A stretch of DNA of 64,000 bases, taken from positions 1,302,001 through 1,366,000 of the forward strand of contig CP115555.1 in NCBI GenBank assembly GCA_030168575.1, in the 5' to 3' direction. The DNA comes from Methanomassiliicoccales archaeon LGM-RCC1. GTDB taxonomy: Archaea > Thermoplasmatota > Thermoplasmata > Methanomassiliicoccales > Methanomethylophilaceae. The position numbers and the translations under genes were made by a program. Each line of letters opens with the position of its first letter. Position 1 is the stretch's first letter. The notes beneath the pieces were generated by a model, which was given only the letters and a program-made list of their open reading frames with translations, had not been told where the DNA came from and made no database searches. Positions 30,575 to 31,156 of this stretch are shown here, in pieces.

Positions 30575-31156
30575 TCAGTAGTATTCGTCGATCTCGCCGT
30601 AGCCGCCGATCTTCTTGTTCTCACGGGTCTTGGCGATGAAGTTATTGAGGCGTTTCTTGAATTCCTCCGGACGGTCCCTGGCAGAATCAATGTACGCTAT
30701 CCTGATCCTCTTGTAGGGCTCTGAAAAGGACTGATAGTTCTTCCAGGCCTCCTTATCTTTCTTGATCTTGGCCAGTATGTCCTTCGGGAAAACATATTCT
30801 TCGGCTATGAGGGATTCCACCTGGGGACGGATTTCAGGATGGATCAGTCCTTTGGAGTCCATATTGATTAGGCGTTCTATGTTCATCCTGGAGTGAGGGC
30901 TGTTGTTCTTCCTAGGGGTGAAACGTCTGATATGGCATCTCTCATCAAGGCTTCCAGCGACGCTGTCGATCCATCCGAAACAGAGAGCCTCTTCGACAGC
31001 ATCGTTGTAGGTTATCCCTTCCTACCCAGAGGATTTCATGGGGAATGCGAACCAGATCTCTTTGGCATCTCTGAAATTGGATTCGAGCCACTGGCGCCAT
31101 TCTTTGCGGTCTGCGGAGTAGAAAATCTCCTTTTCTCCAGATTTGAATGTGGCCAT
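30575..31156 (-). CDS. YdeI/OmdA-family protein with in-frame TAG at codon 45
   Basis: Read from ATG 31156 through a TAG at 31022-31024 this is a 193-residue protein of the YdeI/OmdA family, a group with poorly known function named after bacteriocin protection. Family sequence runs on both sides of the TAG: EWRQWLESNFRDAKEIWFAF and MKSSG before it, YNDAVEEALCFGWIDS and RRFTPRKNNS after it. AGGTGA lies seven bases before the ATG, with no site before the internal ATG at 30886. That ATG would delete the conserved half. No frameshift is needed. TAG probably encodes pyrrolysine; in relatives this loop often holds lysine (one base from TAG). Confidence 0.9.

Follow-up and report, generated by a model that had tools for sequence, protein, structure and literature searches.

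An OmdA/YdeI-like gene with a probable pyrrolysine codon in a Methanomassiliicoccales-type methanogen

Predicted pyrrolysine proteins in related methanogens

In the monomethylamine methyltransferase MtmB, pyrrolysine (Pyl) is a conserved catalytic residue, and a 2025 report is said to describe archaea in which all TAG codons are read as pyrrolysine. For the Methanomassiliicoccales, 16 extra Pyl proteins were predicted in M. alvus, where TAG makes up 1.6% of terminators (Borrel et al. 2014, PMC4153887), and main-text passages on ISO4-H5 and ISO4-G1 give 46 TAG-containing genes (PMC5011839) and 25 Pyl genes (PMC4824259), respectively.

Here we describe an OmdA/YdeI-like gene with a single in-frame TAG, found in a stretch of 64,000 nucleotides (the window, positions 1302001-1366000 of a 1.66 Mb single-contig genome) whose host, judging from its genes and its relatives, looks like a methylamine-using Methanomassiliicoccales-type methanogen. 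The gene resembles the predicted Pyl proteins, as these appear in the M. alvus list and in those passages (PMC4153887, PMC5011839, PMC4824259), in that the TAG lies in a conserved non-methyltransferase gene with TAG-free homologs in relatives, and in that the host has pylTSBCD and very few TAG terminators. It differs from them in that two relatives carry TAG at the same column, apparently through separate gains, and no OmdA/YdeI-family protein is named either in that list or in those passages. As in MtmB (PF05369), the TAG would be decoded by the same cassette; in contrast to MtmB, the protein here is an unrelated one and its predicted Pyl falls in a loop of variable sequence. With the OmdA/YdeI-like family the gene shares its domain, its length and a conserved EEALCFGWIDS block, whereas the site of its TAG is occupied by Glu, Asp, Lys or Gln in almost every other member. 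A known phenomenon is thereby extended to one more protein, with nothing new in kind.

The gene, its frame and its orthologs

The gene runs on the minus strand from an ATG at 31156 to a TGA at 30577..30575, and its translation with TAG as O is open throughout (Table 1). The Pfam match to OmdA (PF13376) covers residues 121-180 with an E-value of 5.8e-12 and 45.8 bits, above the curated cut-off of 25.6. A protein search aligned residues 1-193 end to end with stop-free orthologs at 64-66% identity, and the alignment is free of indels at the TAG, as the sequence-only reading had proposed; family sequence lies on both sides of the codon in one frame, with EWRQWLESN and IWFAFP before it and YNDAVEEALCFGWIDS after it. 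Such two-sided homology is far beyond what chance would be expected to give. The 103-residue ORF probably represents a piece of the full gene misread as a gene of its own, and standard annotation cuts TAG genes of this sort into fragments, of which this remnant is an example.

Table 1. Features of the OmdA/YdeI-like locus, in window coordinates.
Feature	Position	Strand	Basis
OmdA/YdeI-like gene, 193 codons with TAG as sense, TGA end	30575..31156	minus	PF13376 match, end-to-end orthologs
Single in-frame TAG, codon 45, probable pyrrolysine codon	31024..31022	minus	same TAG in L039/L063 (SIG9) and L012 (G009)
PF13376 (OmdA) domain	30617..30799	minus	Pfam
103-aa ORF from Met91, expected output of a table-11 gene caller	30575..30886	minus	full-length orthologs without a stop
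Shine-Dalgarno-like AGGTGA 5' of the ATG	31164..31169	minus	predicted from sequence
Archaeal TATA-like CTTATAT	31189..31195	minus	predicted from sequence

An OmdA/YdeI-like function is suggested by the family annotation only, and the name of PF13376 refers to bacteriocin protection and YdeI. A sequence search against the PDB returned no relative of the protein, an NCBIfam search returned no match, and a fold search for function gave nothing below E 0.001. The gene lies apart from those around it and is convergent with a gene that, from its sequence, we call SfsA-like. Window positions 31223-34224 form a stretch of lower GC in which each strand carries one AAA-ATPase-like ORF; it ends beside a tRNA-Ser gene (34140-34224) and is possibly an insertion site.

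Evidence for TAG as a sense codon in the host

The genes pylT, pylS, pylB, pylC and pylD lie upstream of the window, at a distance of about 12 kb. ARAGORN identified a tRNA-Pyl(CUA) at L043:8439-8509, adjacent to a pylS whose match (259.5 bits) is over the cut-off, and the tRNA gene is followed in order by ORFs resembling pylB, pylC and pylD, which were assigned by sequence and gene order and not by a family scan. The host also has two mtmB genes, each with its one canonical in-frame TAG.

Stop usage was sampled over 464 kb, comprising the window and twenty 20 kb stretches of the host genome, and the count covers confident ORFs, that is, those with a strong codon-usage score and at least 80 codons. 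The 365 ORFs of this kind end in TGA (332), TAA (28) or TAG (5), while TAG accounts for 21% of the stop triplets in the sample. Each of the five TAG endings falls inside a gene whose coding sequence carries on beyond it (the two mtmB genes, an aconitase gene, a ThiF-family gene and a TraG-like gene), and the Pfam aconitase and ThiF domains run across their TAGs. Since none of the roughly 360 confident ORFs sampled has TAG as a true terminator, and every TAG end belongs to an interrupted gene, TAG is almost certainly a sense codon in this host, which adds to the cases where methanogens of this group use TAG as functional sense. The earlier proposal of pyrrolysine at codon 45 is thus supported by the tRNA-Pyl(CUA), PylS and the PylBCD-like proteins, by the mtmB TAGs and by the lack of TAG terminators in the sample, while the presence of Pyl in the protein itself is what we infer.

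Scanning the surroundings of stops for coding flanks by codon bias did not discriminate, as TAG and TGA were returned at equal rates. The flanks of the TAG in the OmdA-like gene are only weakly coding by codon usage (1.8 and 1.9, 35 codons on each side), and a downstream RNA hairpin considered as a Pyl signal (z -1.0) was neither distinctive nor common to the orthologs; both points count against the pyrrolysine reading.

Other genes of the host carry comparable codons. In the aconitase gene (L059:6208-9033, minus strand) the TAG is codon 175 and the two aconitase domains continue through it intact, and in the ThiF-family gene (L043:17884-18507) it is codon 112. An identical pair of IS110-family transposase genes (L044:18618-19658 and L062:3086-4126) has an in-frame TAG at codon 197 in both copies; this is a mobile element that has spread with a TAG sense codon.

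Readings of codon 45

We suggest, with a probability of about nine in ten, that the gene encodes a full-length OmdA/YdeI-like protein in which UAG45 is read as pyrrolysine and tolerated in a variable loop. A single substitution in a Glu (GAG) or Lys (AAG) codon of that loop would have produced the TAG; UAG would be decoded by tRNA-Pyl(CUA) charged by PylS, placing pyrrolysine at position 45, and translation would stop at the TGA after codon 193 to give a product of 193 residues. The TAG would persist because it is a working sense codon genome-wide and because the loop tolerates a bulky lysine derivative. As the host already reads TAG as pyrrolysine and the codon falls in a flexible loop, the gene is probably intact, not broken.

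Close orthologs have Glu (18), Asp (4) or Lys (1) at this column, and two species have TAG there. L011, the ortholog that branches nearest, has AAG (Lys), the others GAG, GAA or GAC, and among distant homologs Lys occurs in L023, L031 and L033 and Gln in L042. The sequence-only reading had taken Lys to be frequent in the loop, which fits these distant homologs but not the close orthologs. It had also noted that TAG is one base from AAG; since Glu predominates among close relatives, with Lys in L011, a change from GAG and one from AAG are equally likely. Finally, it had placed the TAG within a conserved domain, and conserved blocks do flank the codon, but the loop itself varies in the alignment and the TAG falls at no conserved residue. 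A structure model with Lys in place of Pyl is confident over the whole length (pLDDT 93) and places residue 45 in a predicted loop between a strand (34-39) and a helix (50-59). Pyl45 is most likely a change that the protein tolerates, probably nearly neutral, with no part in catalysis.

Two other orthologs have TAG elsewhere, the columns concerned being 98 (mostly Trp among the orthologs) and 142 (mostly Gln). A single base separates TAG from TGG (Trp), CAG (Gln) and GAG (Glu) alike, which is what random mutation would predict. The family offers a small natural series in which Glu, Trp and Gln sites have changed to TAG among closely related genomes, a resource for studying how readily Pyl spreads by neutral change. 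An ortholog of about 59% identity in G009 (L012) has TAG at the same column as codon 45. Common ancestry of the two was considered and rejected, as the tree needs two changes and 0 bootstrap trees have one; on the tree, the TAG of G009 is best read as a separate gain.

This recurrence is what favours the idea, itself compatible with Pyl insertion, that Pyl45 is a selected functional residue and not merely tolerated. Such a role is possible and weakly supported, and we consider the idea unlikely: the loop site varies (E, D, K, Q), Glu or Asp is retained there in the majority of PylS-encoding relatives, and the family's other TAGs are at other columns. Moreover, 38 codons are one change from TAG, and with four gains we estimate a probability of roughly 15% that one coincidence occurs. 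Slightly less likely again is the fuller form, in which a loop Pyl was selected twice, in the window species and in G009, for a role of its side chain, so that Pyl would have a function here in a protein outside methylamine metabolism.

That the TAG is a true nonsense mutation, and the gene a recent pseudogene, is likewise quite improbable, although OmdA-like genes are dispensable: about half of the family's genomes lack a match, and the copy in G096 has decayed, with one TGA and six TAA (a fragment of it is listed again with a TAG); no PylS over the cut-off was found in G096, whose assembly is incomplete. In the family-wide search of relatives, copies interrupted by TAG alone occur in seven genomes, the window's included, though TGA is the commonest stop triplet, and PylS is over the cut-off in all seven. 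In the sample, moreover, confident ORFs of the host do not terminate at TAG. Thermoplasmata archaeon SIG9 (L039/L063), a genome of this species that was assembled separately, has the identical TAG, and its gene differs from ours in nine codons, six of them synonymous and three nonsynonymous (two of these in the last three codons); neither genome shows a second lesion.

Very improbable is a pair of products, a 44-residue peptide ending at the TAG and an OmdA-domain protein reinitiated at Met91. The 103-residue ORF does have an ATG and contains the entire Pfam domain, but about 20 close orthologs are single unbroken frames of about 190 residues, the confident model covers the full length, and the split would do away with residues 46-90, which include the most conserved block (EEALCFGWIDS). 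A single-base sequencing or assembly error, conceivable because TAG is one base from GAG or AAG, can practically be set aside, since the same TAG recurs in SIG9 despite the nine codon differences.

Two close relatives of the gene (L040 and L041) lie within MAGs labelled Bacillales and Bacteroidales, a placement possibly due to gene transfer or to misbinned contigs.
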